From a virus, in the IMG/VR virus record IMGVR_UViG_3300043631_000001, positions 1 through 42,184 of that record: a stretch of 42,184 bases of DNA. One strand, given 5' to 3'. The translations under genes were made by a program, and so were the position numbers. Each line of letters opens with the position of its first letter. The stretch's first letter is position 1. The notes beneath the pieces are model-generated. The model made no database searches. It saw nothing but the letters and a program-made list of their open reading frames with translations, and was not told the origin of the DNA. This document shows positions 24,346 to 41,325 of the stretch, in pieces.

Positions 24346-24663
24346 CTATGCGGGAGGTGCAGGAACATCTCCGGGGAGGATGGGAGCCGCGTCGGGGTGC
24401 ATGGCCGCCAGAGTGGCTGCGTCGGTTTTCATCGCCGCGATGGCATCGACGAGGTCCGGCGACGGCACGAGGCCTGCGGCGGCAATCTCCGCCTCCAACT
24501 TGGCGAGTCCGGCGTCGAAGCGGGCGCCCACTGCTGCAACCTGCACGCCGAGAGCGTCTCGGGCGTCTGACTCTTCACTCATCCGTTCCTCCAGTCGGTT
24601 GATCCTGCGGGCGTGTTCGGGGACCTGCTCCAGAAGCGATTCGAGCCAGCGGAAGGGATGCAT
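24346..24663 (-). CDS. Small coiled-coil protein between the terminase genes
   Basis: 105 aa from ATG at 24663 (TGATG overlap). RWLESLLEQVPEHARRINRL plus EERMSEESDARDALGVQVAA form a long helix; the rest is Ala-rich with APILPGDVPAPPA at the end. Such small coiled-coil genes occur between terS and terL in actinophages. Function unknown. Confidence 0.65.
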   Translation of the reverse strand: MHPFRWLESLLEQVPEHARRINRLEERMSEESDARDALGVQVAAVGARFDAGLAKLEAEIAAAGLVPSPDLVDAIAAMKTDAATLAAMHPDAAPILPGDVPAPPA

Positions 24664-25073
24664 CAGCCGAGCTTGTCGCGGTAGTCGTCGAGGCTCGCAA
24701 CGTCCGACGGCACGGCATCAGTCGTCGGCGTCCCCTCGATCTCCCACATCAGCCGGCGCATGGCCATGGGGTTCAGGCCCAGGCGGTCCTCGAGCTGGCG
24801 GACCTCGGCCAGCAGGTAGCCGGGGGCCTTCGGGCGCTCCGCTGCCAGCACCAGCTTCGTGTAGCGGGCGACAGTGCGGACCCATCCGAGGGCTTCCCAG
24901 GCCGTCGCCTGCGGCGTTGCCCACAGCTGCGCCCACAGGGCCGCCGCCGCCTTCGTAGGCCTGCCGATCGGGAATGCGGGAGGCTCTCCGGTGCGCCCTG
25001 CGGACGGCAGGCGGCGCCAGTCCGGCCGTGCATTCCGCCGCCTGGGGTTGCGGGTCGGCGGGGGGCCGGGCAT
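24663..25073 (-). CDS. terS: Terminase small subunit
   Basis: 136 aa from ATG at 25073. MPGPPPTRNPRRRNARPDWR, then TKAAAALWAQLWATPQATAW, YTKLVLAAERPKAPGYLLAE and VRQLEDRLGLNPMAMRRLMW are the familiar pattern of actinophage small terminases. It recognises the packaging site and recruits TerL. A basic, disordered N-terminus probably contacts DNA. Frames starting further upstream are low-complexity and overlap another gene. Confidence 0.85.
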   Translation of the reverse strand: MPGPPPTRNPRRRNARPDWRRLPSAGRTGEPPAFPIGRPTKAAAALWAQLWATPQATAWEALGWVRTVARYTKLVLAAERPKAPGYLLAEVRQLEDRLGLNPMAMRRLMWEIEGTPTTDAVPSDVASLDDYRDKLG

Positions 25074-25078
25074 CGGGC

Positions 25079-25420
25079 TTACGGCAGATCCAGGCGCTGC
25101 ATGAGCTGCGAGATGACGTCGTTCCGGTCGCTCACCATCCCCGCCAGCTCGACCAGCTCGTCGCCCAGGGGGGACCGTGATGAGACATCGCTGAGCTTCT
25201 TGGGATTCTCTTCGGGACAGTCCGGCCGGAGGGCCATGCTCAGGTGGTCCCGTAGCTGAGCGAGGAGGGCGCCCTGCTTGTCGAGAAGCTCCCGGATGCT
25301 GCCCAGGTGCTCCTTGATCGCCCCGGGCGCACGATCCGGAGTGCCGTAGCTGATGGTGGTCGTGAGACTGCCTCTCTCGTCCAATCTTTCCTCGACTCGC
25401 ATGTACGTGTTCCGCTGCAC
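25079..25420 (-). CDS. Small helical protein upstream of terS
   Basis: Up to 113 aa. Starts at GTG 25420, ATG 25402 or TTG 25384 (the last has GAGGA just upstream) cannot be separated. GAIKEHLGSIRELLDKQGAL and LAQLRDHLSMALRPD form amphipathic helices, and LVELAGMVSDRNDVISQLMQ is a second one. Probably a small oligomeric late protein. Not recognised. Confidence 0.6.
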   Translation of the reverse strand: MQRNTYMRVEERLDERGSLTTTISYGTPDRAPGAIKEHLGSIRELLDKQGALLAQLRDHLSMALRPDCPEENPKKLSDVSSRSPLGDELVELAGMVSDRNDVISQLMQRLDLP

Positions 25421-25492
25421 CTTCCGAGGCCTCGACCCGTACGCACAGACAGGCGCTAGGCCTGCCGGTCGCCAGCGCCCATGGCCGAGGGG

Positions 25493-25810
25493 TCACCCCC
25501 CACCCCCCATGGCGTCGAGCGGCGTCACTCCGGGATGCAGCGCCCGCGGCCTGGCCGCGGGCAGCCGCCTCAGCGACGACGCCTCATACCCTTCTTTTGC
25601 GCTCTTGCGCCTGTGGCACGGGGGGCAGGTCGCTCCCAGGTTTTCCTCGGAATTGTCGTCGCCCCGCCGCTTGTGGTCCACGTCGTTCGCCGGATCACCG
25701 CAGAGGTAGCAGATCCACCGGTCCCGCTCGAGGACACGGAGACGGCGCTGCTTCCAGTCAGGCGGTAGCCGCTGCCTTCGACCGCTTCCGGCCCACTGGC
25801 CTGACGTTCG
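25493..25810 (-). CDS. HNH endonuclease without an ordinary start codon
   Basis: The frame reads RLPPDWKQRRLRVLERDRWI, CYLCGDPANDVDHKRRGDD, NSEENLGATCPPCHRRKSAK, an unmistakable HNH fold with two C-x2-C zinc pairs and the DVDH active-site His. HNH proteins beside terminases (HK97 gp74 type) assist packaging. No ATG, GTG, TTG or CTG is in frame between the upstream stop (TGA, first base 25813) and the conserved part; the only in-frame GTG is inside the motif. Expression could use a rare start, a frameshift from the glycosyltransferase, or the gene may be broken. Confidence 0.75.
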   Translation of the reverse strand, partial: RTSGQWAGSGRRQRLPPDWKQRRLRVLERDRWICYLCGDPANDVDHKRRGDDNSEENLGATCPPCHRRKSAKEGYEASSLRRLPAARPRALHPGVTPLDAMGGGG

Positions 25811-26780
25811 TCACCTCCCGAAGAACACCCTCCAAAACCTCGATGGAATCTTCGAGCCACAGTTCGGCCATCGCCGCCCGGGCGGCCTCGCCCATGCGCC
25901 TGCGCAGATCGTGGTCCCTGACAAGTTCCTGGACGTAGTCGGCCAGCTCGGCCGGGCTGTCTGCCAGGAACCCAGAAATACCTTGGGCGATCAGGGCCTC
26001 CTGCGCGGGCAGCCTGGTAGCCACGACGGGCTTGCCGAGGGCCATGAACTCCATGGCCTTGAGTGCCGACTTCGCCTCGTTGAAGGGACAGGGCAGCAGG
26101 GGCACGATGCCGATGTCCGCCCGGGCCATACCCTCGTAGTAGGTCCGCTCGTCGTAGGTGAAGCCGAGCAGCTTGTCGATGCGCCCCGGGAGGCGCAGCT
26201 CCTTCTGCGTGCGGTGATCGCCGATCGATGTGAAGAGCGCTCCGCTCACCATGCGTTTGGCCTCCGGGGCCAGCCAGCGCAGGTCGTGGGCGTGGGTGCT
26301 GACGATGCCTGCCCATCCGATCCGCACCCGCGTGTCTCCTGGGGGGTGCTGCCAGCGGTACTGGCCGATGCGTGCGGGCAGGCGGTTGGGAACCACCCAG
26401 GTCCGGTGCGCAAGGGGGCCGTAGATCTCGGCCAGCCGCTGGGTGCTGACGATCAGGCCGGTGGCTTCCTGGATGGCCTCGTCGTGCCAGGCCAGCGCGC
26501 CCGGGGGCGGCGTCCAGCCGTGGCCGGGGGGTAGAAGGCCGAGGGCGTCGTCGGCTTCGACCAGGACCACGACGCCAGCCTTGCGGTGAGCCGCTACCTG
26601 CGAGACGTCCCGGTTGGTCAGGGGCCGGTGCACCACGACGACGTCAGCGTCGCCCGGTTGCGGCCAGCGGCGCTCGGCGCATCCTGTATTCCAGCCCCGT
26701 GCGGCCAGGGCCTCGGCCGGCCACCAGGTGCGCAGGCGGCTGCCGACCCGATCGCAGGCAACGAAGCGCACTCTGGGCAC
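25758..26780 (-). CDS. GT-B glycosyltransferase (GT4-like)
   Basis: 340 aa from GTG at 26780 (AGGACATCT upstream); an ATG at 26864 would add 28 atypical residues. The N-terminal Rossmann half has VRFVACDRVGSRLRTWWPAE and DVVVVHRPLTNRDVSQVAAH. The C-terminal half has IGWAGIVSTHAHDL and NEAKSALKAMEFMALGKPVV, the E-x7-E sugar-nucleotide motif of GT4 enzymes. It may glycosylate virion proteins, phage DNA or the host surface; the acceptor cannot be read from sequence. It lies beside a second glycosyltransferase in the late operon. Confidence 0.85.
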   Translation of the reverse strand: MPRVRFVACDRVGSRLRTWWPAEALAARGWNTGCAERRWPQPGDADVVVVHRPLTNRDVSQVAAHRKAGVVVLVEADDALGLLPPGHGWTPPPGALAWHDEAIQEATGLIVSTQRLAEIYGPLAHRTWVVPNRLPARIGQYRWQHPPGDTRVRIGWAGIVSTHAHDLRWLAPEAKRMVSGALFTSIGDHRTQKELRLPGRIDKLLGFTYDERTYYEGMARADIGIVPLLPCPFNEAKSALKAMEFMALGKPVVATRLPAQEALIAQGISGFLADSPAELADYVQELVRDHDLRRRMGEAARAAMAELWLEDSIEVLEGVLREVTNVRPVGRKRSKAAATA

Positions 26781-26913
26781 AGATGTCCTGGGGTCGAGAG
26801 GAAAGGGGCGGCGACGGACCTCGAGGCTCCGGGCGGGTTGGTCAAGGCACACGTCGCCACGCATGAGTCAAAACCCACGCGTGTGATTTGTCAATTACCG
26901 GGCTCTACGGCGC

Positions 26914-28187: not shown

Positions 28188-28228
28188 GTGTGACTTTCCT
28201 GCGAATAACATTTCCGGGTTTGTCACAC
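28188..28228. promoter_or_regulatory. Inverted repeat in the gap ahead of the late block
   Basis: GTGTGAC (28188-28194) and GTCACAC (28222-28228), perfect, 27 bases apart, in the short AT-richer gap between recombinase 2 and the first late-block gene. TACGAT (28177-28172, minus) could be a -10 box. It may be an operator or a recombinase site. Confidence 0.45.
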
Positions 28229-29290
28229 GGTCCAGATGGCGGCTGAGGAGTTCCCCTCGCTGCGGGAGGCGTCCTCGGTGTAGGCGTCGACCATGCGGTC
28301 GCTGTGGTGGCCAGTCTGCGCCTTGATCTTCTGGCGGGACGCTCCCGCCTTCGCTGCGCTGGTGACGTGGCCGCGCCGCAGGGAGTGACCGGCGAACTTG
28401 GCCGGGTCCCGGCCCGCGGCCTTCGCCCGGGCCTTCACGACGTCGGCGACGGCCTGGCCGCTGAGGGGCCTGGCGCCGACGTGGCCGTGGCGATCGATCT
28501 TGCGGAAGACCGGGCCTTCGGTGATCCCGCCGGCGGCGAGCCAGGCGCTCAGAGCGCGCACGGGGCAGTCCTTCGCCTCCGGGGCGTAGCAGACGAGCAC
28601 CGTTCGGCCCTTGCCCGCCTGGTCGGTCTTCGATCGCCGGATCCGGATGTCCATGCCTTCGTCGACGTCCTCGAGGTCTTCGACGGCCAGGGCGGCGAGC
28701 TCGCTGCGGCGGAAGCCGCCGGCGAAGCCCATGAGGACGAGTGCCCGGTCCCGCAGGCCGGCGAGCTGGAGACGGTCGGGGGCGCCGGGCAGGGGGGCCA
28801 CCGGATCGGGGAGGCCAGCGACCATGCTGCGGATGATCGTCGTCGTGGCGGCCGCCTTCGGGCGCTGGGCGGACCCGACGCTGCGGCGGATGCCCTCCCA
28901 GCACTCCTGGACGGCCGGGTGCTTGATCGGGTTGTCGGTGTGGGCGAAACCGGCCCGGGTGTGGGCGACGCTGATGCTGACCATGAACCGGCTGAGGGTC
29001 GAGGCGCTGTAGGCCCGGCGCTCCCCGTTGCGGGTGAGGTAGCCCTCGACGACGAGGTGGTCGAGGAAGCGGCAGATGGCGGCCGGGGTGGCCGGCAACG
29101 CTGACAGGCCCTCAGCGGCGCACCATGCCTCGAAGCGTCGCCAGTCGTCGCGGTAGGCCCGCCGGGTGCTGTCCGCCTTCGCACCCGCCATGAAGGCCCG
29201 GATCCGGGATTCCGCCGCGTCCACCTCCCCGACCGCCTCGAGGGGGCGGATGACCAAGGCTACAGGCTGACCGGGGAGAGGATCGTTCAT
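28223..29290 (-). CDS. Tyrosine recombinase 2 (XerC/D-like)
   Basis: 355 aa from ATG at 29290, chosen because a promoter lies just upstream; an in-frame ATG at 29332 would place translation across the -10 box. The N-terminal core-binding domain has SRIRAFMAGAKADSTRRAYR and WRRFEAWCAAEGLSALPATP. Catalytic set: Arg in GFRRSELAAL (about R195), Lys in RRSKTDQ (about K221), H-x-L-R in GHSLRRGHVTSAA (about 302-305), His in TGHHSDRM (about 328) and Tyr in VDAYTE (about 337). It differs from integrase 1 in length and motifs. It may resolve dimers, integrate, or invert DNA. Confidence 0.9.
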   Translation of the reverse strand: MNDPLPGQPVALVIRPLEAVGEVDAAESRIRAFMAGAKADSTRRAYRDDWRRFEAWCAAEGLSALPATPAAICRFLDHLVVEGYLTRNGERRAYSASTLSRFMVSISVAHTRAGFAHTDNPIKHPAVQECWEGIRRSVGSAQRPKAAATTTIIRSMVAGLPDPVAPLPGAPDRLQLAGLRDRALVLMGFAGGFRRSELAALAVEDLEDVDEGMDIRIRRSKTDQAGKGRTVLVCYAPEAKDCPVRALSAWLAAGGITEGPVFRKIDRHGHVGARPLSGQAVADVVKARAKAAGRDPAKFAGHSLRRGHVTSAAKAGASRQKIKAQTGHHSDRMVDAYTEDASRSEGNSSAAIWTV

Positions 29291-29302
29291 CGGCTCATCT
29301 TG

Positions 29303-29343
29303 TGATAACTCTGCATTATCAAAAGTGAGCATCAGCCTGTCAG
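29303..29343 (-). promoter_or_regulatory. Promoter of recombinase 2 with operator on the -10 box
   Basis: Minus strand CTGACA (29343-29338), 17-base spacer, GATAAT (29320-29315). An inverted repeat TGATAA-N7-TTATCA (29303-29321) covers the -10 box and start point. A regulator bound there would block transcription. The gene's ATG at 29290 is about 18 bases from the predicted start. Confidence 0.7.
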
Positions 29344-29603
29344 GACCGGTCCAGCAGCCGCGTGATGCGGCGCTCGCGGTGGTCGGCCTCGATCTGCGGG
29401 GTGAGGTAGTGGACGTTGCTGGGACCGACCTCGGCCTCGGTCACGTCCCGGTCGGCACGCTTCTCCTCGTGGGTGAACATCCGGTCGAACAGGAGCAAGG
29501 CGCCGACCATCCCTATCACGACGCCCAGCGCTATCGCAGCGATCCCGGCCACGGGGCGCAACGTGTAGAACAGCACCTCGCCCACGAGGTAGAGGAAACC
29601 CAT
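29340..29603 (-). CDS. Two-TM membrane protein
   Basis: 87 aa from ATG at 29603. MGFLYLVGEVLFYTLRPVAG and IAAIALGVVIGMVGALLLFD are hydrophobic; the C-terminal half is charged (FTHEEKRADRDVTEAEVGPS...) and cytoplasmic by the positive-inside rule. It lies between recombinase 2 and a secreted protein, in the accessory block. Could be a Spd-like spread protein; family not certain. Confidence 0.65.
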   Translation of the reverse strand: MGFLYLVGEVLFYTLRPVAGIAAIALGVVIGMVGALLLFDRMFTHEEKRADRDVTEAEVGPSNVHYLTPQIEADHRERRITRLLDRS

Positions 29604-29667
29604 CAGATGCACCTCTGCGCGCGGCAAGGCGCTGAACCGGTCTTGCCGCGCACACAGAGCACCGTCT

Positions 29668-30111
29668 TCACGCCGACGGGTAGCCCACTCGGGCAACGAG
29701 GACGTGGTTGTTGTTGTCGAACGTGGCGCCCCACCAGATCGTGAGCTGCATGGCGAGCGGATCGTCGGTGTGCCACTCGACGTAGCAGTTGCTGATGGCG
29801 ATGCACCAGGGGGCCTGCGCCACGAGGTACGGCACCCATATGCCGGTGTCGGGGTCCCGCACCAGGTGGAAGATCAGGATCGCCCGGCGGAAGGCGCTCT
29901 GGCCGAAGGTCGGGGTTGAGTCGTCGGTGTTGGCTCGGATGACGCCCCCAGGGCCGGGGGTCGAGGCGTACTCGCCGAAGCAGACTCGGATGTCGGCCGT
30001 GCAGGTGGACTGCTGCGAAGCCGGGGGCAGCGCCGACGGTTGAGCTCCGGCCGTGCCGGGCAGGGCCAGCAGGCCTGCCAAGACGACTCCCGCGGCCAGG
30101 CGGCGGATCAT
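29668..30111 (-). CDS. Secreted protein with signal peptide
   Basis: 147 aa from ATG at 30111 (TGATG overlap). RRLAAGVVLAGLLALPGTAG is a signal peptide with cleavage likely near AGA-QP. The mature part has four cysteines (STCTADIRVCFGEY; APWCIAISNCYVEWH) that could form disulfides outside the membrane, and a final TIWWGATFDNNNHVLVARVG. Not recognised. Its coupling to the 50-aa gene upstream suggests a joint extracellular role. Confidence 0.7.
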   Translation of the reverse strand: MIRRLAAGVVLAGLLALPGTAGAQPSALPPASQQSTCTADIRVCFGEYASTPGPGGVIRANTDDSTPTFGQSAFRRAILIFHLVRDPDTGIWVPYLVAQAPWCIAISNCYVEWHTDDPLAMQLTIWWGATFDNNNHVLVARVGYPSA

Positions 30112-30263
30112 CAGCGGTATCCGTTGGCGGCGGTACACGCCTTGTGGAAAGAGCTGCCGGGGATCGGGTGGCTCGTTGCCCAGGTGTAGCAGCGGCCGAT
30201 CTCGTGAGCATTGACTGCCAGGAAGTGGCCTATCCAGGCCAAGTCGTGAGGGGAGAACCACAT
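30111..30263 (-). CDS. 50-aa protein coupled to the secreted protein
   Basis: ATG at 30263 with GGAGGTCTGGCA upstream, TGA at 30111 overlapping the next ATG. Sequence: WFSPHDLAWIGHFLAVNAHE, IGRCYTWATSHPIPGSSFHK, ACTAANGYR. Two cysteines and many aromatic residues. The strong ribosome site and overlap support it. No family is recognised. Confidence 0.65.
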   Translation of the reverse strand: MWFSPHDLAWIGHFLAVNAHEIGRCYTWATSHPIPGSSFHKACTAANGYR

Positions 30264-30346
30264 TGCCAGACCTCCAGTCGTTTGGTCTCAGGGTGGGGGG
30301 TGGTGAATTGCTCCCGGGGTCGGTTCCTCCATGCCTGGCCCGGGCT

Positions 30347-30513
30347 CTAGCGGCTGCGGGGGACAGAACTGCGGGGTGGGTCTCTAGGCACAATGGACAG
30401 TGGGCGTCGTGGGCGGTGATAGGGGGCTAGAACGCAGGTCAGAGGGCCTTTTGGCGGGGTTCAGGGGGTCTAGGCCTAGCCTTGAGGGGGTCTAGGCCTA
30501 GACCCCCTTCTAG
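30347..30513. promoter_or_regulatory. CTAG-rich cluster with 22-bp palindrome, candidate clt or operator
   Basis: Eight CTAG tetramers start at 30347, 30384, 30427, 30470, 30476, 30492, 30498 and 30510. AGGGGGTCTAGGCCTAG occurs twice (30463-30479, 30485-30501), and 30486-30507 is a perfect 22-bp palindrome centred on CTAGGCCTAG. TCTAGCGGCT also occurs twice (30346, 30509). CTAG is normally scarce in such genomes. In Streptomyces plasmids, TraB binds short repeats (clt) near traB; the location here fits, but the motif differs from known ones. Confidence 0.6.
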
Positions 30514-30853
30514 CGGCTCTGAACGGATGGTCGGGGGAGCTGGGGCGGCGTTCCCTGCCCCCCTGGCGGCCCTGGCGGCGGTTCATCTCTTCGACCTGGT
30601 CCCGGAGCATTTCCACCGTGGCCCGCATCACGGCCGTGCGCACGCCGGACCGGTACCAGTGGGCGACGCCCTGGAACGGCCCCCAGGCGTTGTCGCCCTT
30701 GAGGTTCGCCACGATGATCGACACGTGGCCCTCGGACTGCTGCGTGCTGAGGGCCTTGTCGCCACGGGCCTGGCGGCCGGGATAGTAGGGCTGGCCATCA
30801 GCCCCCCGGCGTATCCGGATCCTGCGCCCGTGGTCATAGAAGTAGCCGCTCAT
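30476..30853 (-). CDS. Chimeric small protein containing a copied piece of TraB
   Basis: 125 aa from ATG at 30853 (ATGA overlap with the traB stop, so probably coupled). Residues 1-30 (YFYDHGRRIRIRRGADGQPY) are novel. About 31-43 (GDKALSTQQSEGH) are antisense of a gntR fragment. Residues 44-94 repeat TraB residues 363-413 in frame (SIIVANLKGDNAW...MRATVEMLRDQVEEMNRRQ) with one change, Lys to Gly. The tail is Arg/Pro-rich. It ends in the CTAG palindrome. It may be a recombination product; if made, it carries part of the TraB ATPase core between Walker A and B. Confidence 0.6.
   Translation of the reverse strand: MSGYFYDHGRRIRIRRGADGQPYYPGRQARGDKALSTQQSEGHVSIIVANLKGDNAWGPFQGVAHWYRSGVRTAVMRATVEMLRDQVEEMNRRQGRQGGRERRPSSPDHPFRAARRGSRPRPPQG
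30571..30726. repeat. 156-bp direct repeat, copy 1 (inside the chimeric gene)
   Basis: Matches 31737-31892 at 154 of 156 positions; the only differences are CC for TT at the PFQ codon region. Same orientation, offset 1166 bases, reading frame kept. Confidence 0.97.
30726..30770 (+). pseudogene. 45-bp fragment of a gntR-type HTH gene
   Basis: Plus-strand reading VALGLLRAEGLVATG matches LALGLLRSEGLVYTG of the GntR gene; at DNA level 40 of 45 bases equal 34383-34427, including 20 identical in a row (TGGCCCTCGGACTGCTGCGT). It abuts the end of the copied traB segment exactly. Confidence 0.85.
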
Positions 30854-32976
30854 CTGGCGCCCTGCAGCTCGGTGTCGGCGAGAGACTCGAGAGTGACGCC
30901 TTTGCGGTTGGCATTGGTGCCTTCGGGGGTTTCGCCCCAGACCTGGACGGTCTTGACGTTGTGGCGGCCGAGCTGGGTGCCGAGGTCGCTGGCGTCCCAC
31001 CCGTCGTACGTCTCGGGCCAGCGCTCGGCCAGGCGGGAGGCGATCTGCTCGGACCACAGCCTGGTCTCGCCGATGCCGAAGACGGCTCGGACGTCGTCGA
31101 GGAACGGGCGGGCGGGGGTCTCGACGACGAGGGCCTCGCCGGCTGCCTCGCCGGTCAGGGTGCCCGCCTTGATGCGCAGCTCCCGGCCCCGGTCGCAGAT
31201 CGCCTGCAAGGTGGGGAGGTCCATGAAGTGGGTGCGGACGATCTGGGCGTCGGAGTCGGAGAGCTCCGAGTCGTCGTTGCCGAGCAGCCAGCCGACGCCC
31301 TTGTGGCGGTCCTCGAGCTTGGAGGCGTCCCAGCCCTTGGAGGAGCAGCCGGTGCCGAGGATGCAGTTGCTTGCCTGGTAGTCGCGGACCTTGAGGGCGA
31401 AGCGCTTGCCGAGCTGGCCCCGGATCCCGGTGGGCAGGATGTCGCTGTTGGGGTCCTGGGTTGCGAGGTCGAGCATGATGCCGGACGAGGATCCGACCTT
31501 GGCGAGGTCGGTGAGGTAGAGGCGGGCCATGTCGGCGACGGTCGGGATCTTCTTGGAGCGGCCACGGCCGGTCGGCACGTCGTCCTCGTCCCACGCCGGG
31601 GTTTCGCACTCGAGAAGGCGCTGGACCTCGTCGATGGCGATGACCCGGAGGCCCATGTTGAGGCGCTTGTCGCGGGCGAGGGCCGGGGTGAGCTTCGACT
31701 CGGGGCAGCGGTCGTGCGGGAGGGTCTCGATCAGCTCCTGGCGGCGGTTCATCTCTTCGACCTGGTCCCGGAGCATTTCCACCGTGGCCCGCATCACGGC
31801 CGTGCGCACGCCGGACCGGTACCAGTGGGCGACGCCCTGGAACGGCTTCCAGGCGTTGTCGCCCTTGAGGTTCGCCACGATGATCGACACGTACGGGTCG
31901 AGGGCGGCTGCGGCCACGGGGATGCGGGCGGCGAAGGTCTTGCCCATGCGGGTCTGGGCACCGGTCAGCATGCCGGAGAACACGAGAGACCAGGAGACCA
32001 GGGCGCTCTTGGCGTCGATGCCGAAGGGGAAGCCCTTCCAGAAGTCGAGGCGGTCCATCTTGGCGAGCGGGGTGATCGGGGACTTCGAGGCGTAGGGGTC
32101 GGTGTCGGCGACCCAGAGCATCACGCGGCGCTCGGAGCGCTCGGAGGCGACGGGCATCTGGCTCAGGAAGACCTGAACCTTCTGGACGTCGAGGCCGGAG
32201 GCGATGACCTCGAGCTTCTCCACGGCCTTGGCCACGGTCACGCCGATCGGCAGAACGATGCGGGCGGCGAAGCCCTTGCCGTCGCGGTGGACGCCGGGGG
32301 CCTGGAAGGTGATCGGCTCCTTCTCGCTGCCGAGGCTCGCTGCGTGGAAAGCGGCTACGACCATGTCGGGGGTGATGGTCCGCACGCCGGGGGCCTCGAT
32401 GACGCCGGAGTCGACGATGGGGCGGTCCTTGCGGCGTCCGTGCCAGCCGAGCAGGCCGATACCGACCAGGACGCCGAGAAGAGGTAGCCGGGGGTAGCTG
32501 GCCAGCATGGGGAGGCCGAAGACGCCGGCGATGGCGACGACGATCAGGCGGCCACGGACGCGGTGACCGTGCTCTTTGGAGAGCGAGCGGTACTGGCTCA
32601 CGTGGCCGCTGCGCTCGTGGCCCATGACGGAGCTGGCGAGCGACGTGATGGCGTGGCGCTGGACGGTGAGGCCGTCGGCGTCGAACAGCCAGCGGGTGCC
32701 GGAGGCGAAGGCCCGCCATGCGCCGCGGGGGGAGTAGATCAGCAGGCGGCCGCCGTACAGGGGGAGGCGGACGGCGTGGAGTGCCCCCAGGTGAGCGACG
32801 TGGCGGACCGCCCAGTGCGCAGTGTTCCGCAGCTCGGCGCGGTGGCGGAGCCAGGGGGGCAGGATCGGGCGGAGCGAGGGCCGGGGCTTGGGAGGCTCCG
32901 GCGGGGCCAGGGGGGCGGGGGCATCGGTGTGGGTCGTGATGCCACGGCCTCGGAAGGTGAGCAGGCGGGAGGCCAT
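30850..32976 (-). CDS. traB: TraB/FtsK-like DNA translocase
   Basis: 708 aa from ATG at 32976. A Pro-rich N-terminus, membrane segment(s) at about 143-175 (RLIVVAIAGVFGLPMLASYP; LLGVLVGIGLLGW), then a RecA-like motor: Walker A GAQTRMGKT (339-347), Walker B RVIAIDE (444-450), LDLATQDPNSDILPTGIRGQ as sensor region. The C-terminus is a likely winged helix (RLWSEQIASRLAERWP). This matches the TraB/TraSA translocases that move double-stranded plasmid DNA between actinomycete hyphae. Small Spd-like genes upstream and a GntR regulator support it. FtsK-type phage or chromosome motors are the alternative. Confidence 0.82.
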   Translation of the reverse strand: MASRLLTFRGRGITTHTDAPAPLAPPEPPKPRPSLRPILPPWLRHRAELRNTAHWAVRHVAHLGALHAVRLPLYGGRLLIYSPRGAWRAFASGTRWLFDADGLTVQRHAITSLASSVMGHERSGHVSQYRSLSKEHGHRVRGRLIVVAIAGVFGLPMLASYPRLPLLGVLVGIGLLGWHGRRKDRPIVDSGVIEAPGVRTITPDMVVAAFHAASLGSEKEPITFQAPGVHRDGKGFAARIVLPIGVTVAKAVEKLEVIASGLDVQKVQVFLSQMPVASERSERRVMLWVADTDPYASKSPITPLAKMDRLDFWKGFPFGIDAKSALVSWSLVFSGMLTGAQTRMGKTFAARIPVAAAALDPYVSIIVANLKGDNAWKPFQGVAHWYRSGVRTAVMRATVEMLRDQVEEMNRRQELIETLPHDRCPESKLTPALARDKRLNMGLRVIAIDEVQRLLECETPAWDEDDVPTGRGRSKKIPTVADMARLYLTDLAKVGSSSGIMLDLATQDPNSDILPTGIRGQLGKRFALKVRDYQASNCILGTGCSSKGWDASKLEDRHKGVGWLLGNDDSELSDSDAQIVRTHFMDLPTLQAICDRGRELRIKAGTLTGEAAGEALVVETPARPFLDDVRAVFGIGETRLWSEQIASRLAERWPETYDGWDASDLGTQLGRHNVKTVQVWGETPEGTNANRKGVTLESLADTELQGAR
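31737..31892. repeat. 156-bp direct repeat, copy 2 (inside traB)
   Basis: The parent copy of 30571-30726, coding TraB residues about 363-413 between Walker A and Walker B. Confidence 0.97.
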
Positions 32977-32977
32977 G

Positions 32978-33208
32978 TCAGGGGGCCGTGGTGGGAGCGG
33001 GAGCGGCGGGCTGTGTAGGGGCTGCGGGGGTGATGCCGGAGCCGCTGGTCACGCCGGAGAAGGTCGAGCCTGCGGCGTTCATGCCGGAGCTGATGAGGGA
33101 CTGGCCGGCGGTCATGACCCGGCCCATGTCGGCGGAGACCTGGCCGGGGTTGTGGCCTGCCCAGCCGACGAAACAGAGAATTGCGAGCCACTTCACGAGC
33201 GTTTTCAC
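32978..33208 (-). CDS. Spd-like small exported or membrane protein
   Basis: 76 aa from GTG at 33208 (AAGGACCCCAAG upstream), ending 1 base before traB. LVKWLAILCFVGWAGHNPGQ is a TM or signal segment, the rest Ser/Gly/Thr-rich with PAAPTQPAAPAPTTAP at the end. Small hydrophobic proteins beside traB are called Spd (spread) in Streptomyces plasmids. Sequence alone does not prove membership. Confidence 0.65.
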   Translation of the reverse strand: MKTLVKWLAILCFVGWAGHNPGQVSADMGRVMTAGQSLISSGMNAAGSTFSGVTSGSGITPAAPTQPAAPAPTTAP

Positions 33209-33453
33209 CTTGGGGTCCTTTCCTTGGGGCCAGCGATGAGGAGCAGGACGAAACCGAGAACCTTGGAGAGCAGCCAGAGCACGAGGAGGAGGGCCAGCCA
33301 ATAGCCCGGCCCGCCGTCGAGGAAGGCGCCGATCATGTGGGCCGCGGCGTGAGGGATATCCGCTCCGTACTGGGCGAGGATGGGGGTGGTCGGGGCGTTC
33401 AGGCACTCGGCCACGGTTTGGGCGACGGTGCATGCGTCGGCGAGGGGACTCAC
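33205..33453 (-). CDS. Spd-like two-helix membrane protein
   Basis: 82 aa from GTG at 33453 (GTGA overlap). The N-terminal half is soluble (ACTVAQTVAECLNAPTTPIL), then GYWLALLLVLWLLSKVLGFV, a strong TM helix running into LLLIAGPKERTPR. Paired with the preceding and following small membrane genes upstream of traB. Confidence 0.65.
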   Translation of the reverse strand: MSPLADACTVAQTVAECLNAPTTPILAQYGADIPHAAAHMIGAFLDGGPGYWLALLLVLWLLSKVLGFVLLLIAGPKERTPR

Positions 33454-33872
33454 GGCGTGTCCAGTCCGTCGAAGGCACCCAGGCCGAGAGCGAACTCCTG
33501 CAGGATCGCCCCGGCCAGCGCCCGCCGTGAGGCTTTCTCTTCGTCCGAGCAGTCGCACCAACGCTGATAGTCCCGCTCATGCTCCAGGTCCCGGAAGATC
33601 TGACAGCCACACGGGCAGGCCAGCGCCAGCGTGAAGGGCTTGCCGTCCCAGGGGTAGGCCTTCTTCTCGTGTCGATCCTTGTGACAGCCGCAGACGCAGA
33701 TGTCACCCCGGCACCACCACGGGTGAACTTGGCCCGGGCAGGTAGCGCAGCCATCGCAATGGACCACGACAGAGCGTTCGCAGGTGAGGCACTCACCTCT
33801 CGCCCTGATCTGATTCCGGACCTCGGCGGCTGCTCCGCGACCCTCTGTCTCGAGTAGTTCTAACTCCTCCAT
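33450..33872 (-). CDS. Cys-rich zinc-binding protein in the transfer block
   Basis: 140 aa from ATG at 33872 (AAAGGAG upstream). Many cysteines: ECLTCERSVVVHCDGCATCP, WWCRGDICVCGCHKDRH and ACPCGCQIFRD, with a final CDCSDEEKASRRA. Enough for three or four zinc sites, so probably a compact zinc protein acting on nucleic acid or protein. Not a known Spd family to me. Confidence 0.7.
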   Translation of the reverse strand: MEELELLETEGRGAAAEVRNQIRARGECLTCERSVVVHCDGCATCPGQVHPWWCRGDICVCGCHKDRHEKKAYPWDGKPFTLALACPCGCQIFRDLEHERDYQRWCDCSDEEKASRRALAGAILQEFALGLGAFDGLDTP

Positions 33873-33890
33873 CCGACTTGCTCCTTTCGG

Positions 33891-34088
33891 CTAGCGGCGG
33901 CGTCTGGACCAGTGCCAGAGCAGCCAGGCGACGAACAGGGGACGACGGCGGGCCTCGGACTCGGCGATGCGGAGGATCCGGGAGCAGGCCCACCAGACCA
34001 GCGCGACGACGAGGACCGCGACGGGCAGGGGGCCGTGGGCGAAGAGGGCCGAAACGAACCCAGCTGCAGCGTGGAGCGTTGCCACCAC
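33891..34088 (-). CDS. Small membrane protein, first gene of the tra operon
   Basis: 65 aa from GTG at 34088 (a second GTG follows at once; GAGGAG adjacent). AAGFVSALFAHGPLPVAVLV and VALVWWACSRIL give one or two TM segments, then a basic tail (ESEARRRPLFVAWLLWHWSR). Topology matches small Spd proteins. It is the gene nearest the divergent promoter region shared with the GntR regulator. Confidence 0.65.
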   Translation of the reverse strand: MVATLHAAAGFVSALFAHGPLPVAVLVVALVWWACSRILRIAESEARRRPLFVAWLLWHWSRRRR

Positions 34089-34111
34089 CTCCTCATCACC
34101 CGTAAGCTGGG

Positions 34112-34160
34112 ACTTGTTCCTTGAAGTTCAGGCCGATGCCATATACAGCATAGAACAAGT
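34112..34160. promoter_or_regulatory. Divergent control region with 8-bp inverted repeat
   Basis: ACTTGTTC (34112-34119) and GAACAAGT (34153-34160), perfect and 33 bases apart, flank an AT-rich core (CATATACAGCATAG). TTGAAG (34121-34126) could be a -35 box for plus. The gap separates the tra operon from the GntR gene, so it is the likely KorSA-type operator. Confidence 0.55.
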
Positions 34161-34213
34161 TAGCAGGGACAACCCAGGATGTCTAGAGTGAGAATCGTGC
34201 GAACTAGGAACAG

Positions 34214-35005
34214 GTGGGTACAGGCGTGAAGCTCGACCCGTCCGGCGAGGAGCCGCTTTACCAGCAGCTGGCGAACGAGCTGCGCAGACAGGTCTTTGCG
34301 AAGGAGCTCCCGCCGGGGCAACGGCTACCTAGCGAGCCGGAGCTGGCTGAGCAGTACGAGGTCGCCCGCAACACCGTGCGCCTGGCCCTCGGACTGCTGC
34401 GTAGCGAGGGCCTTGTCTACACGGGCCGCGGCCGAGGGACCTTCGTAGCGGAGAACCCGGCGGCGGCTCCCCTGCGGCAGATGGCCTCCCGCACGCACGC
34501 CCGGAGCCGGCGGGAGGACACGACGCAGGACACGTTCGTCACGGACCTGGCGGAGATGGGCCGCGACGGCCGAATGGAGATCCGGGTCGAGCGGATGCCC
34601 GCCCCTGACGAGATCGCCTCCCGGCTCGGCTTGGCCGACGACGAGGAGGCTATCTGCCGACATCGGGTGCAGTACGTCGACGATCGCCCCAGCGCTCTCG
34701 CCGACACCTGGTATCCCGAACGCCTCGTGAGGGGCAGTGAGATCGTCGACGCCGAGGACGTAGCTCGAGGGACGAACCGGGTGCTCGCCGAGCTCGGTCA
34801 CGAGGTCGTCCGGCGGACCGATGAGATCAGCGGCCGGATGCCGACACCCGTCGAAGCGCAGGCGCTTCAGATCGCCGGCGGCGTCCCCGTCCTGACGGCA
34901 CTCCGGACGGGGTTCGACGCGGCCGACCAACCCGTAGCGGTCTATGTGTCGATCCTCCCCACAGACCGCCACGTGGTGGTCTACGACGTCCGCTGTGACG
35001 TCTGA
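34214..35005 (+). CDS. GntR-family (HutC/UTRA) regulator, KorSA-like
   Basis: 263 aa from GTG at 34214; GTG at 34226 is the alternative. N-terminal winged HTH: LYQQLANELRRQVFAKELPP, GQRLPSEPELAEQYEVARNT, VRLALGLLRSEGLVYTGRGR with GTFVAE. The C-terminal UTRA ligand domain runs from about residue 100 to 260 (AICRHRVQYVDDRPSALADT; VLTALRTGFDAADQPVAVYV). In pSAM2-type elements a GntR protein (KorSA) represses transfer and replication genes. Divergent placement from the tra operon fits this. Confidence 0.9.
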   Translation: MGTGVKLDPSGEEPLYQQLANELRRQVFAKELPPGQRLPSEPELAEQYEVARNTVRLALGLLRSEGLVYTGRGRGTFVAENPAAAPLRQMASRTHARSRREDTTQDTFVTDLAEMGRDGRMEIRVERMPAPDEIASRLGLADDEEAICRHRVQYVDDRPSALADTWYPERLVRGSEIVDAEDVARGTNRVLAELGHEVVRRTDEISGRMPTPVEAQALQIAGGVPVLTALRTGFDAADQPVAVYVSILPTDRHVVVYDVRCDV

Positions 35006-35513
35006 GGAGTGCTGGCGGGCAGGCGCTCTGAAGATCCGCCAGGCGTCCAGCCGGGACCTGGCGACGGTGCAGAGCATCCTGTCGGAAGCCTCAGCCTGGC
35101 TGGCCTCCAAGGGGATCGAGCAGTGGCCGGACGGAGGCTTCCCCGAAGAACAGACTGCCAGGCGTATTTGGCAGGGGAGCGTGTTCCTGGCACTCGTCGA
35201 CGGTGAGCCCGTGGCGACGATCACCCTCGACGCATGGGCTGATCCCGAATTCTGGGATGCCCCTGATGATGCCGGTTACGTGCACCGCCTCGCGGTCAGG
35301 CGCCGTTGGGCTGGCCGGGGGATCGGCGAAGCGCTGCTCGACTGGGCGGGACGCCGCATCGCTAAGTCTGGCGGCCATTGGCTTCGCCTTGACTGTATGA
35401 GGGAGAATCGCTCGCTGCATGACTATTACCGGCGCCTGGGGTTTGAGCACGTCCGAGACATCGAACTCGGGCACAGGATATCCGGGAGCCTGTTTCAGCG
35501 GCCGGTTCGGTAG
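34995..35513 (+). CDS. GNAT-family acetyltransferase
   Basis: 172 aa from GTG at 34995, overlapping the GntR stop by 11 bases. LKIRQASSRDLATVQSILSE is a GNAT opening, then VATITLDAWADPEFW, YVHRLAVRRRWAGRGIGEAL with the acetyl-CoA loop R-x2-G-x-G/A, and LRLDCMRENRSLHDYYRRLG, GFEHV. It transfers acetyl groups to an unknown amine. Linked GntR-GNAT pairs occur in actinomycete mobile elements. Confidence 0.88.
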   Translation: MTSEECWRAGALKIRQASSRDLATVQSILSEASAWLASKGIEQWPDGGFPEEQTARRIWQGSVFLALVDGEPVATITLDAWADPEFWDAPDDAGYVHRLAVRRRWAGRGIGEALLDWAGRRIAKSGGHWLRLDCMRENRSLHDYYRRLGFEHVRDIELGHRISGSLFQRPVR

Positions 35514-35522
35514 GGTTCACGT

Positions 35523-35885
35523 ATGAAGAACTGCCGCTCACCTAGAGCGTCGATCCTCCTCCAAGCACTGGCGGCAGTAGCCCTCAGCGCCTGCGGCCAT
35601 CCGCAACCGGCAGCCTCGTCATCGCCTGCCATCTCGGCCGACTTTGCCAACCGCTCGATCTGCCTGGCCTACCGGGGAGACCCCAAGCCGACCAGTCAGA
35701 CTCTGATCCGGGCGCAGGGCGACTACGGAGCATTCGCCTCGCCTACTCTTGAGGACGCCGTCCGGGCCTTCCTGGCGGCCCACGAGCCGAACTACGTGGA
35801 CATGAACAAACCAGGCGTCTTCGGGTCTTATTCGGCCGCCGTGGGGAGGATGGTCAGCACCTGCACCGCCCTCACCGGCTCCTGA
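35523..35885 (+). CDS. DUF732-like secreted lipoprotein
   Basis: 120 aa. Signal peptide with lipobox LSAC (residues 21-24, Cys24 lipidated): ASILLQALAAVALSAC. After a Pro/Ser linker, ADFANRSICLAYRGDPKPTS and SYSAAVGRMVSTCTALTGS carry two cysteines as in DUF732 proteins of mycobacteria and relatives. It is last in the GntR-GNAT operon. May alter the lysogen's envelope or entry exclusion; inference. Confidence 0.75.
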   Translation: MKNCRSPRASILLQALAAVALSACGHPQPAASSSPAISADFANRSICLAYRGDPKPTSQTLIRAQGDYGAFASPTLEDAVRAFLAAHEPNYVDMNKPGVFGSYSAAVGRMVSTCTALTGS

Positions 35886-35899
35886 CCCGGGAGGTCAGG
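35881..35899. terminator. Hairpin spanning two convergent stop codons
   Basis: CCTGACC-CGGGA-GGTCAGG, a 7-bp perfect stem. It contains the plus TGA of the lipoprotein gene (35883-35885) and the minus TGA of the next gene (35897-35895). Likely a two-way terminator, though without U tracts. Confidence 0.55.
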
Positions 35900-36544: not shown

Positions 36545-36747
36545 CAGGCGGGCCGGTCGATGGGCTTGAGGTCGGCCATCAGGCCGCGGCAGCGGGTGCA
36601 GAGCTGGTACGTGAGGCGGCCGACCTGCATCGGTTCCAGGCGCTCGGGGAGCACCTTGTTGCGGCTTCGGGAGCCTTCCTGGATGCCGCAGCGATCGCAG
36701 GTCGGGGGCTTTGGCTTGGGGGTGCGTGTCTTCGCCTTGGCACTCAT
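36544..36747 (-). CDS. Small zinc-ribbon protein
   Basis: 67 aa from ATG at 36747 (ATGA overlap with the helicase-methyltransferase gene). Basic N-terminus, then CDRCGIQEGSRSRNKV and LCTRCRGLM, a clear C-x2-C...C-x2-C ribbon. Coupled on both sides. May bind DNA or RNA. Confidence 0.72.
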   Translation of the reverse strand: MSAKAKTRTPKPKPPTCDRCGIQEGSRSRNKVLPERLEPMQVGRLTYQLCTRCRGLMADLKPIDRPA

Positions 36748-39059
36748 GCCGGCACCTCTTCCGGGCCGAAGAGCGAGCCCTGGGCTTTGGCGAGGACAGC
36801 CCGCTCGAGGTGCTTCACGGCCTGCTCAGCGTAGGCCCGTTTGAGTTCCACGCCGAGGAATCGCCGGCCGGTCTCGATGGCCACGGCTCCCGTCGAGCCG
36901 ATACCGGCGAAGGGGTCGAAGACGAAATCCCCGGGGTTGCTCCATAGGTAGATGCAGCGCTCGATGACGTCGAGCTGGAGGGGGCAGATGTGCTTTTCGT
37001 CCTGCTCGCTGCGGGCGTCGCGGAAGGCCAGGACCCGGGGCTGCCTCACGTCAAACCACACGGGTGAGGCGTAGCGCTGCCAGAGCTGAATCGACCAGTC
37101 CCTGTCGCTGTCCCAGGCCTCGGGCGGGTTCTCACCGATGTACTGGCCGGGCACGGGAGGGTGCTGGATCTGGCGATCGGGGAAGCCCTCCTTCCAGGCG
37201 CCGAACACGAGGACGAAGTCCGCCATGCCCTGGCGGCAGACCTCTCCGCGCTCGGCGAAATTCTTGTGCAGGAGGCCGTGGTTCTTCGTCCGCTGCATCT
37301 CCGTGACGGGGTCCTTCCAGATCGTGATGCGGCTGTGGAACGTCCAGCCGGCGTCGGTGAAGGTCCGCACGAGGTCCCCGGGGAAGTCATAGAGGCCCGC
37401 GGCGCCGTCCCGGTTGCGGTAAAGCGGCAGGTCCTTGCAGTGGACGCAGCAGAGGCGGCCGGGCTGGGTGATGCGGTAGAGCTCGGGGGCCAGCCAGGCG
37501 AGGTGCTGAAAGAACTCATCGTGGTCGGCGCTGTTGCCCATGTCGGCAACCGAATCGGAGTAGATGTAGAGGTTCGAGAAAGGTGGGGAGAAGACGCTGA
37601 GGCCGACCGAGTTGTCCGGGATATCCCTGGTGACGGCGACGCAATCGCCGAGGTGGAGCTGCCAGTCCTCACCCTGAAAGAAGTCCTCGTCGACGTCGCT
37701 GAGCAAGCGGCCGTCCTTGCGGGTGGCCAGGCCGAACTCCCGGGTGGCCTTGACCATCGCAGCCACCATCACGTCGAACTCGACTTGCTTGGCCTCGACG
37801 GCGGAGACGATGCCCTGGTCGGACTCGGCGCTGATGAGATGCACCGTGACGGGCTTGGTCTGCCCGTAGCGCCACGAGCGGCGGATGGCCTGGTAGAGCT
37901 TCTCGAACGAATAGGTGAGCCCGACGAACACCACGTCCGAGCAGTGCTGCCAGTTGAGTCCGAAGCCGGCGATGCTGGGCTTGGTCACGATGACCCGGGC
38001 GTCGCCGTCGCTGAAGGCATCGAGCTTGCGCTCCTTCGCCTCGATCGACTCGCTGCCCCGGACCTCGACGGCGTAGGGCATCATCTTGGCGAGCATGTCA
38101 GCCTCGTGGTTCGTCTCGCACCACACGGTCCACGTGTCGGGCTTAGTCGCCACGATCTCCACGGCCCTGGTGCAGCGATCCTTGGCTGTTTCCTTCTTGT
38201 CAGCCCACATCTGCGTGGCGGAGGGCGCCGCGTCGCCGAGGAAGAGCTGGCCCCGCTCGTGGGCCCGGTTGGGATCTGCGATCAGGTGCCCCTCGATGCG
38301 CAGGGGGGGCAGGGCGAATCCGCCGTCCTCGTAGTCGCCGAGGTCCGAGGGCTTCTCAGCACACACTGCCCAGCTCGAGACCCAGCGCCAGAAGTCCCGC
38401 TCACCATGGGCCTTGAGGCGGTAGTTCCCGGCCTTCATGGAGTCGTTGATGAACCACCGGGCAAGCATCTCGTTCGAGGCCATGACCCCCAGGAAGTCGG
38501 CGTGGTTGCCCAACTCCATGTGATCGTTGGGGGCCGGCGTGGCGGTGCAGGCGAGGCGGTAAGGCGTCCCGGCGAAGGCCTCCAACAGCGCCCGCTTCGT
38601 CTTCCCGGTGAACGACTTGAGGATGCTCGACTCGTCCAGCACGACGCCGGTCCAGGCGGCCGGGTCGAAGTCGGCGAGGCACTCGTAGTTCGTAATGACG
38701 ATCGGCGCTCCGCCAGCGGCTTCGTAGTCGGCCTGGCTCCGGTGATACTCGACCTCGATGCCGAGCTTGGCTGCCTCCCGGATCGTCTGGTGAGCGACGG
38801 CGAGGGGGGCCAGGATCAGAACCCGCTCGCCAGTTTCCTCCACGATGCGGTGCGCCCACTCGACCTGGATCCAGGTCTTCCCCATGCCGCATGCGAGGAA
38901 TACAGCAGCCCGGCCGCGCTGCAGCGCCCAGGCGGTGACCTCCCGCTGCCAGTCGAAAAGCAGGGGATTCAGATCGTCCGCCGTGGCCTGGATACCGAAG
39001 GTGTCGGCCGCTACCAGCTTGGCGGCCAGGAAGTCCTCGTAGCTCGGGTCACTCCCCAC
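36744..39059 (-). CDS. SF2 helicase - DNA methyltransferase fusion
   Basis: 771 aa from GTG at 39059. Residues 30-450 are an SF2 helicase: CGMGKTW (motif I, 57-63), LDESS (141-145), TATP (172-175), QAIRRSWRYGQ (motif VI, 390-400). Residues about 465-760 are an N6/N4 amino-methyltransferase: SPPF (491-494) as catalytic motif IV and DPFAGIGST (715-723) as AdoMet motif I, in that order, the beta class. The fusion may protect phage DNA like P1 DarB or modify DNA while tracking; no target-recognition domain is obvious. Confidence 0.9.
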   Translation of the reverse strand: MGSDPSYEDFLAAKLVAADTFGIQATADDLNPLLFDWQREVTAWALQRGRAAVFLACGMGKTWIQVEWAHRIVEETGERVLILAPLAVAHQTIREAAKLGIEVEYHRSQADYEAAGGAPIVITNYECLADFDPAAWTGVVLDESSILKSFTGKTKRALLEAFAGTPYRLACTATPAPNDHMELGNHADFLGVMASNEMLARWFINDSMKAGNYRLKAHGERDFWRWVSSWAVCAEKPSDLGDYEDGGFALPPLRIEGHLIADPNRAHERGQLFLGDAAPSATQMWADKKETAKDRCTRAVEIVATKPDTWTVWCETNHEADMLAKMMPYAVEVRGSESIEAKERKLDAFSDGDARVIVTKPSIAGFGLNWQHCSDVVFVGLTYSFEKLYQAIRRSWRYGQTKPVTVHLISAESDQGIVSAVEAKQVEFDVMVAAMVKATREFGLATRKDGRLLSDVDEDFFQGEDWQLHLGDCVAVTRDIPDNSVGLSVFSPPFSNLYIYSDSVADMGNSADHDEFFQHLAWLAPELYRITQPGRLCCVHCKDLPLYRNRDGAAGLYDFPGDLVRTFTDAGWTFHSRITIWKDPVTEMQRTKNHGLLHKNFAERGEVCRQGMADFVLVFGAWKEGFPDRQIQHPPVPGQYIGENPPEAWDSDRDWSIQLWQRYASPVWFDVRQPRVLAFRDARSEQDEKHICPLQLDVIERCIYLWSNPGDFVFDPFAGIGSTGAVAIETGRRFLGVELKRAYAEQAVKHLERAVLAKAQGSLFGPEEVPA

Positions 39060-40239: not shown

Positions 40240-40631
40240 GGCGCTACCAGCCGTTCCTGGGTGCGCTGCTGGCCCTCGACCTGGCGCCGGTGGGCGATGC
40301 GCCACCAGGCGATCGTGGCGTCGTTCGCGGCGAGGAAGTCTGCCAGGAGCTTCTGGTCATCGACGGCCCAGTAGTGCGCCCGGTCCACGAGGTGCTCCCG
40401 CAGCTCCTCGTCGTTGACGAAGTCCCGGAGGTAGTGCTCGTAGCGCCGGAGGTTGTAGACCTCCCGGACCTCCGAGTCACTGAGCCGGGTGTGGCCGTCC
40501 TCGGCGACGGTGGGTAGGCCCGGGCACTCCTTCGGCCGCTTGCAGGCCGGGCAGTCGAACGTCATGCCCCGGGCTCGCTCGGCATCGCGGGGGCCGCCGC
40601 GCTGCATCTCCTGGTCACGCTGGCTCGGCAT
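40236..40631 (-). CDS. Small hypothetical protein with Cys motif
   Basis: 131 aa from ATG at 40631, chosen for GGAAGGAG 7 bases upstream. MTFDCPACKRPKECPGLPTV near residue 23 is a short Cys-rich knuckle; SDSEVREVYNLRRYEHYLRD then ELREHLVDRAHYWAVDDQKL is helical. It overlaps the replication-protein stop by 17 bases. Not recognised. Confidence 0.65.
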   Translation of the reverse strand: MPSQRDQEMQRGGPRDAERARGMTFDCPACKRPKECPGLPTVAEDGHTRLSDSEVREVYNLRRYEHYLRDFVNDEELREHLVDRAHYWAVDDQKLLADFLAANDATIAWWRIAHRRQVEGQQRTQERLVAP

Positions 40632-41325
40632 TGGCACTCCTTCCCGCCTCGATGTCGGCGATGACGTGGGCGAGGGTGGCCGGCTGTTTTTTCTCGTCGG
40701 CGATCACCCGTATCCCGGCCTCAACTAGCTCCAACGGTTTCTCGGCTAGCAGACGCTTTGCTTGATTTCCAAGCTGGCCACGCCACGCCTGCGTAGGTTC
40801 GTAGCCGCAGGATTTGCATTGGTTGAAGTAATAGGTAACTAAAGCTTTTGAAGGGTCAGCCGACGACGAAGGAGGAGTGCTGCCCCCGGAGGGGCTTCCG
40901 GAACTTTCTCGAACACTCTCGACGCTCCCCTCGGAGAGCTTCCCTTCCCTTCCCTTCCCTTCCACATCGAATCCTCTCGACGCCTCTCGAAAGCTCTCGA
41001 CGGATCGCGCTATATCGCTTGCCTTTGGCTTATCAACGCGCTGGTGCACATCCCACTTGCGGACGTGCAGAGCGTCCCTTCCTGCGCCCGTTGGGAAAGT
41101 CTCCAAAAGCCCCGACATGAGCAGTCGGGCTATGCCGGACGGCACGTCGATGTTCGGATCGGCCGGAAACACGTCTCGGTGGATCTGCTCGGTGTCATCC
41201 CAGAGCCACCCGAAGTCGTCGGCAAAGTTCCATATCCCGATGAAGAGAAGCCTCGTTTCCACCGGCAATTTCACCACCTTGGCGTCGTTCCAAAAGGAGG
41301 GCTTGATCGTGCGAATGCGGGACAT
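40615..41325 (-). CDS. DnaD-like phage replication protein
   Basis: 236 aa from ATG at 41325. MSRIRTIKPSFWNDAKVVKL, PVETRLLFIGIWNFADDFGW, LWDDTEQIHRDVFP and ALHVRKWDVHQRVDKP is the recurrent actinophage winged-helix replication or loader protein. The low-complexity Ser/Glu middle (about 105-155, coded by purine-rich repeats) is a linker to a C-terminal helical domain (KALVTYYFNQCKSCGYEPTQ). It is the best candidate initiator or helicase loader; no polymerase or replicative helicase is present, so the element leans on the host. Confidence 0.78.
   Translation of the reverse strand: MSRIRTIKPSFWNDAKVVKLPVETRLLFIGIWNFADDFGWLWDDTEQIHRDVFPADPNIDVPSGIARLLMSGLLETFPTGAGRDALHVRKWDVHQRVDKPKASDIARSVESFREASRGFDVEGKGREGKLSEGSVESVRESSGSPSGGSTPPSSSADPSKALVTYYFNQCKSCGYEPTQAWRGQLGNQAKRLLAEKPLELVEAGIRVIADEKKQPATLAHVIADIEAGRSANAEPA

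Follow-up and report, generated by a model that had tools for sequence, protein, structure and literature searches.

The window analysed here is the complete virus record IMGVR_UViG_3300043631_000001 of IMG/VR (42,184 nt), a ~42 kb siphophage map that carries, beside its virion genes, a gene for a TraB/FtsK-like double-stranded DNA translocase (traB; Table 1). We consider it probable that a temperate siphophage of a mycelial actinomycete, possibly maintained as a plasmid, has taken up a conjugation module of the type found in actinomycete integrative and conjugative elements (AICEs), comprising traB, small membrane genes, a divergent GntR regulator and a docking site (clt), and thus may have two routes of spread. 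This reading is supported by a second, colinear viral contig (G001), the nesting of TraB among genome-borne relatives, an array of CTAG sites downstream of traB, and the GntR/GNAT neighbours. TraB, Spd and KorSA form the transfer core of Streptomyces plasmids and AICEs, in which double-stranded DNA is moved without a relaxase. A first-pass annotation of this DNA had proposed that the element could spread both as virions and by mycelial conjugation; the gene set, the AICE-type ancestry, the array and G001 agree with that proposal, while conjugation itself is something we infer.

An AICE-type translocase on a siphophage map

The siphophage gene set of the window is complete, with small and large terminase, portal, protease, scaffold, major head protein, adaptor, tape measure, minor tail protein and endolysin (PHROGs; small terminase by Pfam), and the markers of a temperate siphophage (terminase, portal, capsid, tape measure, lysin, integrase) are all present. 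G001, a viral contig of 41,204 nt from a separate IMG/VR data set, is differently permuted and colinear with the window all round the map, each contig spanning the other's ends, and the transfer module occupies the same map place in both. Identities between the two reach 94% for the large terminase subunit (TerL) and 96% for both portal and head protein, with 63% for TraB and 58% for GntR. The earlier claim that a complete morphogenesis set lies on the same map as the translocase is therefore borne out by PHROGs and Pfam calls together with G001 colinearity. A chimeric assembly, or an AICE integrated beside a prophage, might be suspected from the metagenomic origin of the contig, its ends in a tandem repeat and a 156-nt near-exact internal repeat. 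Because an independent, permuted contig is colinear across both contigs' ends, keeping the same order and ending elsewhere, a chimera appears very unlikely; the plasmid pPaSha2 (see below) also joins TraB, DUF2637 and phage genes, and we give this whole class of explanation next to no weight.

The same annotation had placed all genes on one circle. A colinear map via G001 stands behind this, but an exact terminal repeat was not found at the window ends and a permuted linear genome would also fit; the case for circularity rests on colinearity with G001, and the circular map may reflect a circular molecule or circularly permuted ends. A DUF6745-like gene is split over the contig ends (1–366 and 41340–42184), which fall in its 12-nt tandem repeat. 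The proposed search for relatives with both modules yielded G001, which carries phage genes and the transfer module, and showed that TraB with a terminase recurs in viral contigs. An 87 kb contig (G002) also carries both genes, ~31 kb apart; we do not rely on it because it may be a prophage next to an AICE. A viral-contig scan with the window's head protein returned only 3 loci, and no DNA near-match to GenBank phages was found for positions 15000–36000.

Both Walker motifs assigned to the translocase by the first-pass annotation hold up: they align to columns G339, G345, K346, D449 and E450, which are invariant in 39 sequences. By family, the protein matches the FtsK-like PHROG_1358 (E 6e-23); no Pfam family matches it alone, and FtsK_SpoIIIE matches 14 of its 39 relatives. 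Its score against the NCBIfam equivalog NF041214 (plasmid_TraB) is 16.3 bits, far below the curated cut-off of 800, and we therefore do not file it there. Hydropathy gives one strong segment at residues 144–162, and an AlphaFold2 model (mean pLDDT 84.9) comprises helices at 125–159 and 164–180, the motor, and a C-terminal helix-helix-strand-strand unit. Membrane helices are accordingly predicted in the N-terminal part (within 125–180), and the region of about 635–706 may be winged-helix-like; the unit at 642–695 has good confidence in the whole-protein model. The modelled motor has structural matches in FtsK (2ius, Z 29.6) and in TcpA, a conjugation coupling protein (6o1z, Z 29.5). A search of solved structures with the window's TraB alone gave no match, whereas a TraB profile matched FtsK, TcpA and EccC.

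A tree of 101 rows was drawn from 146 TraB rows and 8 references, with 17 named rows dropped along with roughly two thirds of the genome loci numbered L100 upwards; it was built by a quick method, and its support values are marked with an asterisk. The window's TraB pairs with that of G001 (100*) and then joins four genome-borne TraBs (98*), from Pseudonocardia eucalypti (L074), a Pseudonocardiales metagenome-assembled genome (L075) and two Lentzea (L076, L077); four chromosomal FtsKs stand apart from it at 100*. Grouping with chromosomal FtsK had been named beforehand as an outcome that would speak against the module, and the nested position instead supports an AICE-type ancestry. Identity to L074 and L075 is 47–48%. 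Prim-Pol and DUF3631 genes directly follow TraB in L077, L075 has a tyrosine integrase, and L074 has a DUF2637 gene, with no replication gene among the 4 open reading frames (ORFs) scanned there.

AICE-type TraB/TraSA transfer modules are described for pSAM2-like elements in passages of PMC3218068 and PMC9513070. The window shares with such modules its TraB, a GntR gene lying upstream in the opposite orientation (in some of the loci) and a CTAG array after traB; it differs in having virion genes on a phage genome and no AICE replication protein that we could find. As in AICEs, integrases are present, here two tyrosine integrases. A Prim-Pol profile did not match the window (its control matched), prim-pol and YfjI queries likewise returned none, and a DUF3631 profile was negative too, with no control genome matched although the profile does match L077. 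An AICE proper was thus rejected: the window is not filed as one because no AICE replication protein was found by these queries, RepSA itself not being among them.

Phage-plasmid combinations have precedents. The conjugative Streptomyces plasmid-phage pZL12, cited in parts of PMC3583192 and PMC7157519, is likewise an actinomycete phage genome that carries genes for conjugal transfer, but it measures 90 kb, has ParA/ParB and tra genes of another type; the window's TraB had no match in its record, which is part of the phage collection searched, and a TraB profile had none in the first 50 kb, which holds a Tra3-like annotated gene. The circular Pseudonocardia alni plasmid pPaSha2 (CP052773.1, 41.9 kb) resembles the window in combining a TraB (33% identity) and a DUF2637 gene with terminase, portal and capsid genes. 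It differs in that only TraB and RecT matched among 31 window ORFs, a CTAG array is absent, and its TraB falls in another branch. An open-licence literature search returned no paper combining TraB, terminase and AICE.

If the module works as its relatives suggest, GntR would repress it and release from repression would start transfer. With its C-terminal winged helix TraB would then bind the CTAG array, and it would form a hexameric membrane pore, a pump that would drive the excised double-stranded phage genome through hyphal walls into adjacent mycelium, while the small membrane proteins would aid spread across septa. The phage would thus have two routes, virions released by lysis and mycelial conjugation without lysis. 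A functional TraB might also serve ends other than mating, moving phage or prophage DNA across septa within the mycelium or into spores. Its FtsK-like fold would suit this, a phage would gain by reaching every mycelial compartment, and passages of PMC12857230 and PMC4170104 describe Spd proteins serving intramycelial spread together with TraB in plasmids. Yet the closest relatives sit in AICE-like loci, whose class is known to transfer from cell to cell, and the array is kept as there; intramycelial and mating uses are moreover not exclusive. We regard a purely non-mating role as unlikely.

The CTAG array downstream of traB

Eight of the 26 CTAG sites in the window lie within the array listed in Table 1, which contains CTAGGCCTAG-N12-CTAGGCCTAG at 30470–30501 and CTGACCTGC on the minus strand at 30434–30442. 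Genome-borne TraB loci, here the best 80 of 360, offer a comparison: the first 200 nt after traB hold a mean of 6.6 CTAG, where the remainder of each locus predicts 0.14, and 69 of 79 loci have at least four there (one of the 80 has no 200 nt of downstream sequence). The core in these loci consists of two CTAGNNCTAG palindromes 12 nt apart, with the symmetric variants CTATCGATAG and CTAACGTTAG in some. This core, CTAGNNCTAG-N12-CTAGNNCTAG, has one exact match in the window (30470–30501) and none in 100 shuffles. A repeat-containing site adjoining traB is thus present with AICE spacing, though about 330 nt from the stop.

As a control we used pSVH1 of Streptomyces venezuelae, in which GACCCGGA, the octamer bound by TraB, occurs in five copies directly after traB. 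The arrangement parallels that of the window, with a translocase followed by short repeats and CTGACCTGC; the differences are that the repeat is GACCCGGA and not CTAG, and that pSVH1 is a plasmid of 12.7 kb whose displayed genes include rep but none of phage type. In pSVH1, pSG5, pFP11, the window and G001 the repeats are followed by the 9-mer CTGACCTGC, which elsewhere is kept only in part. As a universal mark, CTGACCWGC was rejected as no more than partial, being present in 18 of 79 genome loci (2.7 expected) and in 9 of 35 loci of a viral clade described below (0.8 expected). According to parts of PMC3583192, pSVH1 TraB recognises repeated 8-bp motifs via its C-terminal winged helix, and the clt of pWTY27 spans 16 bp of traA plus the 159 bp next to it. 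Given its position after traB, the pSVH1 control, this published work and the common CTGACCTGC, we read the CTAG array as the putative TraB docking site (clt); an origin, a terminator or an operator is a rival function for it.

A pattern-first search of 150 Streptomycetaceae genomes was positive in 35 of them, at 50 places, 30 of which were read, one per genome. The pattern lay 15–28 nt past a traB stop in 25 of these 30 loci; in the other five no TraB was in reach, and one (L295) is a plain tandem repeat. L297 and L304 (L282 and L284 in part) have CTAG arrays of the same form with no TraB in reach, possibly docking sites of elements that borrow the TraB of another element. In viral contigs, 119 loci were checked among the pattern matches listed; four of them adjoin TraB, and 111 of the 119 have a GC content of 60% or less.

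Several observations weigh against a working conjugation module. Transfer, array binding and virions are predictions from sequence. The tree comes from a quick method, which gave long-branch warnings for some distant viral rows, and no known Spd family appeared among the window's proteins, neither in Pfam, where the three small ORFs upstream of traB had no match, nor with DUF2637/SpdB2 queries against the window. A piece of traB is inserted between the traB stop and the array, which lies about 330 nt off that stop, and several CTAG sites have decayed to ATAG or CTAT in G001. In the 150 genomes, a reversed, GATC-rich control pattern was positive in 48, against 35 for the pattern itself; the genome count alone therefore proves nothing and the weight lies on position beside traB, CTAG and GATC not being equally common. 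The ratio of non-synonymous to synonymous substitution rates (dN/dS) between window and G001 is 0.59 for TraB and 0.71 for the small gene at 33891, above the genes outside the module (0.04–0.42; TerL 0.08), so that constraint may be relaxed or selection diversifying. Such a ratio, the insertion that parts traB from its array and the partly decayed sites would also fit a decaying relic or a passenger with no present function. Against this, both traB frames are intact (708 aa in the window, 689 aa in G001) with invariant catalytic residues, and both contigs retain the regulator and the small genes; we hold a relic to be quite improbable.

The sequence between traB and the array has a composite structure. 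Positions 30571–30726 are a 156-nt, 99% copy of traB codons (positions 31737–31892), with two mismatches and in the same reading frame; abutting it, 30726–30770 match part of gntR (34383–34427) at 89% over 45 nt. Both pieces (30571–30770) are lacking in G001, and an assembly error is possible.

Recurrence of traB on viral contigs

The TraB profile found 56 viral loci, and in 42 of them, some being near-duplicates (L038/L040 and L069/L070 among such rows), TraB and a large terminase share one contig. This count comprises PHROG_9 terminase matches in 38 of 50 viral contigs plus four of the six contigs under 8 kb left out of that scan; Pfam PF03354 was discarded as a TerL marker, matching only 13 of the 50, seven of them over the cut-off. 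At least five changes are required on the tree to account for phage-borne TraB when viral rows lacking a terminase are left uncounted. No terminase was in reach of TraB in any of the 80 genome loci which, being the best 80 of 360, give no population estimate. A prim-pol or YfjI-type query matches 42 of the 80, and the label AICE-like is hence shown for only part of the loci.

A separate clade of 34 viral loci has TraBs that are 67–100% identical, encoded in all 34 on the strand of TerL and 1.5–4.1 kb ahead of it, while TerL identity is below 40% in 363 of the 452 pairs with TraB above 80% identity. DNA conservation in the clade peaks across traB and the roughly 400 nt that follow, and the first 250 nt after traB hold 4–7 GTTTC/GAAAC motifs in 35 of 35 loci, against about 0.2 expected (the additional locus, L029, has no TerL in its locus). 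With a dN/dS of 0.12–0.22 (nine pairs) and a near-constant sequence beside unrelated TerLs, TraB appears to be kept by selection in this clade, with a repeat motif of its own. In L022–L070 a traB cassette that hardly varies, followed by GTTTCG palindromes, is combined with many unrelated phage packaging modules. A TraB-like protein with a C-terminal FtsK_gamma domain (L066:9473–11869) is encoded on a viral contig of 102 kb, together with a terminase.

The constant order and strand of traB and TerL in this clade could point to a motor of the virion or of packaging, or to a factor that assists DNA entry. The window, however, already has TerL, portal and small terminase; a near-constant TraB beside unrelated TerLs is unlike a packaging partner; and AICE-like loci carry the same protein with no terminase in reach. 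Such a role strikes us as highly improbable.

Whether the capture of a transfer module extends beyond the window and G001 is a broader proposition, which we consider evenly poised: actinophages may have repeatedly captured TraB together with a docking site, so that phage DNA itself would be the conjugation substrate, the CTAG array would be the clt of an AICE-type TraB, and a widespread, hidden TraB-clt group would exist, one clade of which joins its cassette to many unrelated packaging modules. If true, a virus would have, besides lysis, a second and quiet way to spread, the pumping of double-stranded DNA from cell to cell, and this would recur among actinophages that culture collections miss: the window's TraB had no match in 50,697 phage records, and a TraB of the clade matched seven, all distant FtsK-like. 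Parts of PMC12857230 report that TraB moves the host chromosome, and such phages could then drive gene exchange in antibiotic producers. The array offers a directly testable candidate docking site of AICE transfer.

Neighbours of traB and other genes of the window

The first-pass annotation had described three small Spd-like membrane genes upstream of traB. All three ORFs exist and are kept in G001 (66–80%), but only two have a clear hydrophobic segment; homologues in AICE-like loci were sought and none was convincing, the only match being in G001, so the Spd-like label reflects position and size. A Cys-rich gene, also noted earlier, is present in the window but was not found in G001. The divergent GntR-HutC regulator was recognised correctly, with GntR and UTRA domains, and is KorSA-like by resemblance in domain and position. 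The palindrome placed in the shared promoter (8-nt arms, 33-nt gap; 34112–34119 and 34153–34160) is weak and only partly kept in G001, and was rejected as an operator. Among the 80 genome TraB loci, 16 have a GntR match of at least 150 aa upstream on the opposite strand, and the GntR-GNAT pair recurs in L104 and L137.

Table 1 Features of the window, with positions in the 42,184-nt record
Feature	Position	Strand	Remarks
tyrosine integrase 2	5608–6492	+	
endolysin	9265–10176	-	PHROGs
tape measure protein	12918–15689	-	PHROGs
major head protein	18902–19855	-	PHROGs
portal	21149–22615	-	PHROGs
terminase large subunit TerL	22616–24244	-	PHROGs
terminase small subunit	24663–25496	-	Pfam PF25673; PHROG name is minor tail protein
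tyrosine integrase 1	28223–29332	-	
candidate clt	30347–30513		eight CTAG: 30347, 30384, 30427, 30470, 30476, 30492, 30498, 30510
stretch between traB stop and CTAG array	30520–30853	-	~190 nt longer than in G001
traB, TraB/FtsK-like dsDNA translocase	30850–32976	-	708 aa; Walker A 339–347, Walker B 444–450
small ORF, weakly hydrophobic N-terminus	32978–33208	-	Spd-like by position only
small single-span membrane protein	33205–33453	-	about 82 aa; start set by comparison with G001
Cys-rich ORF	33450–33872	-	140 aa
small single-span membrane protein	33891–34088	-	65 aa
GntR/HutC regulator	34214–35005	+	GntR and UTRA domains; divergent from traB operon
GNAT acetyltransferase	34944–35513	+	adjoining regulator; not found in G001
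phage-type replication initiation protein	40615–41325	-	phrog_2149

Other window genes encode a RecT-like protein and a helicase-methyltransferase. A ParA-type AAA_31 profile did not match the window (control matched 14 of 14). The helicase-methyltransferase (36744–39059) is only ~35% identical to its G001 counterpart and lies between well-kept neighbours (90% for the gene at 35895, 82% for that at 39049), which makes module exchange likely at this position. Both tyrosine integrases have 93–95% identity in G001, and a glycosyltransferase-like gene between terminase and integrase (25758–26864) is kept there at ~89%.

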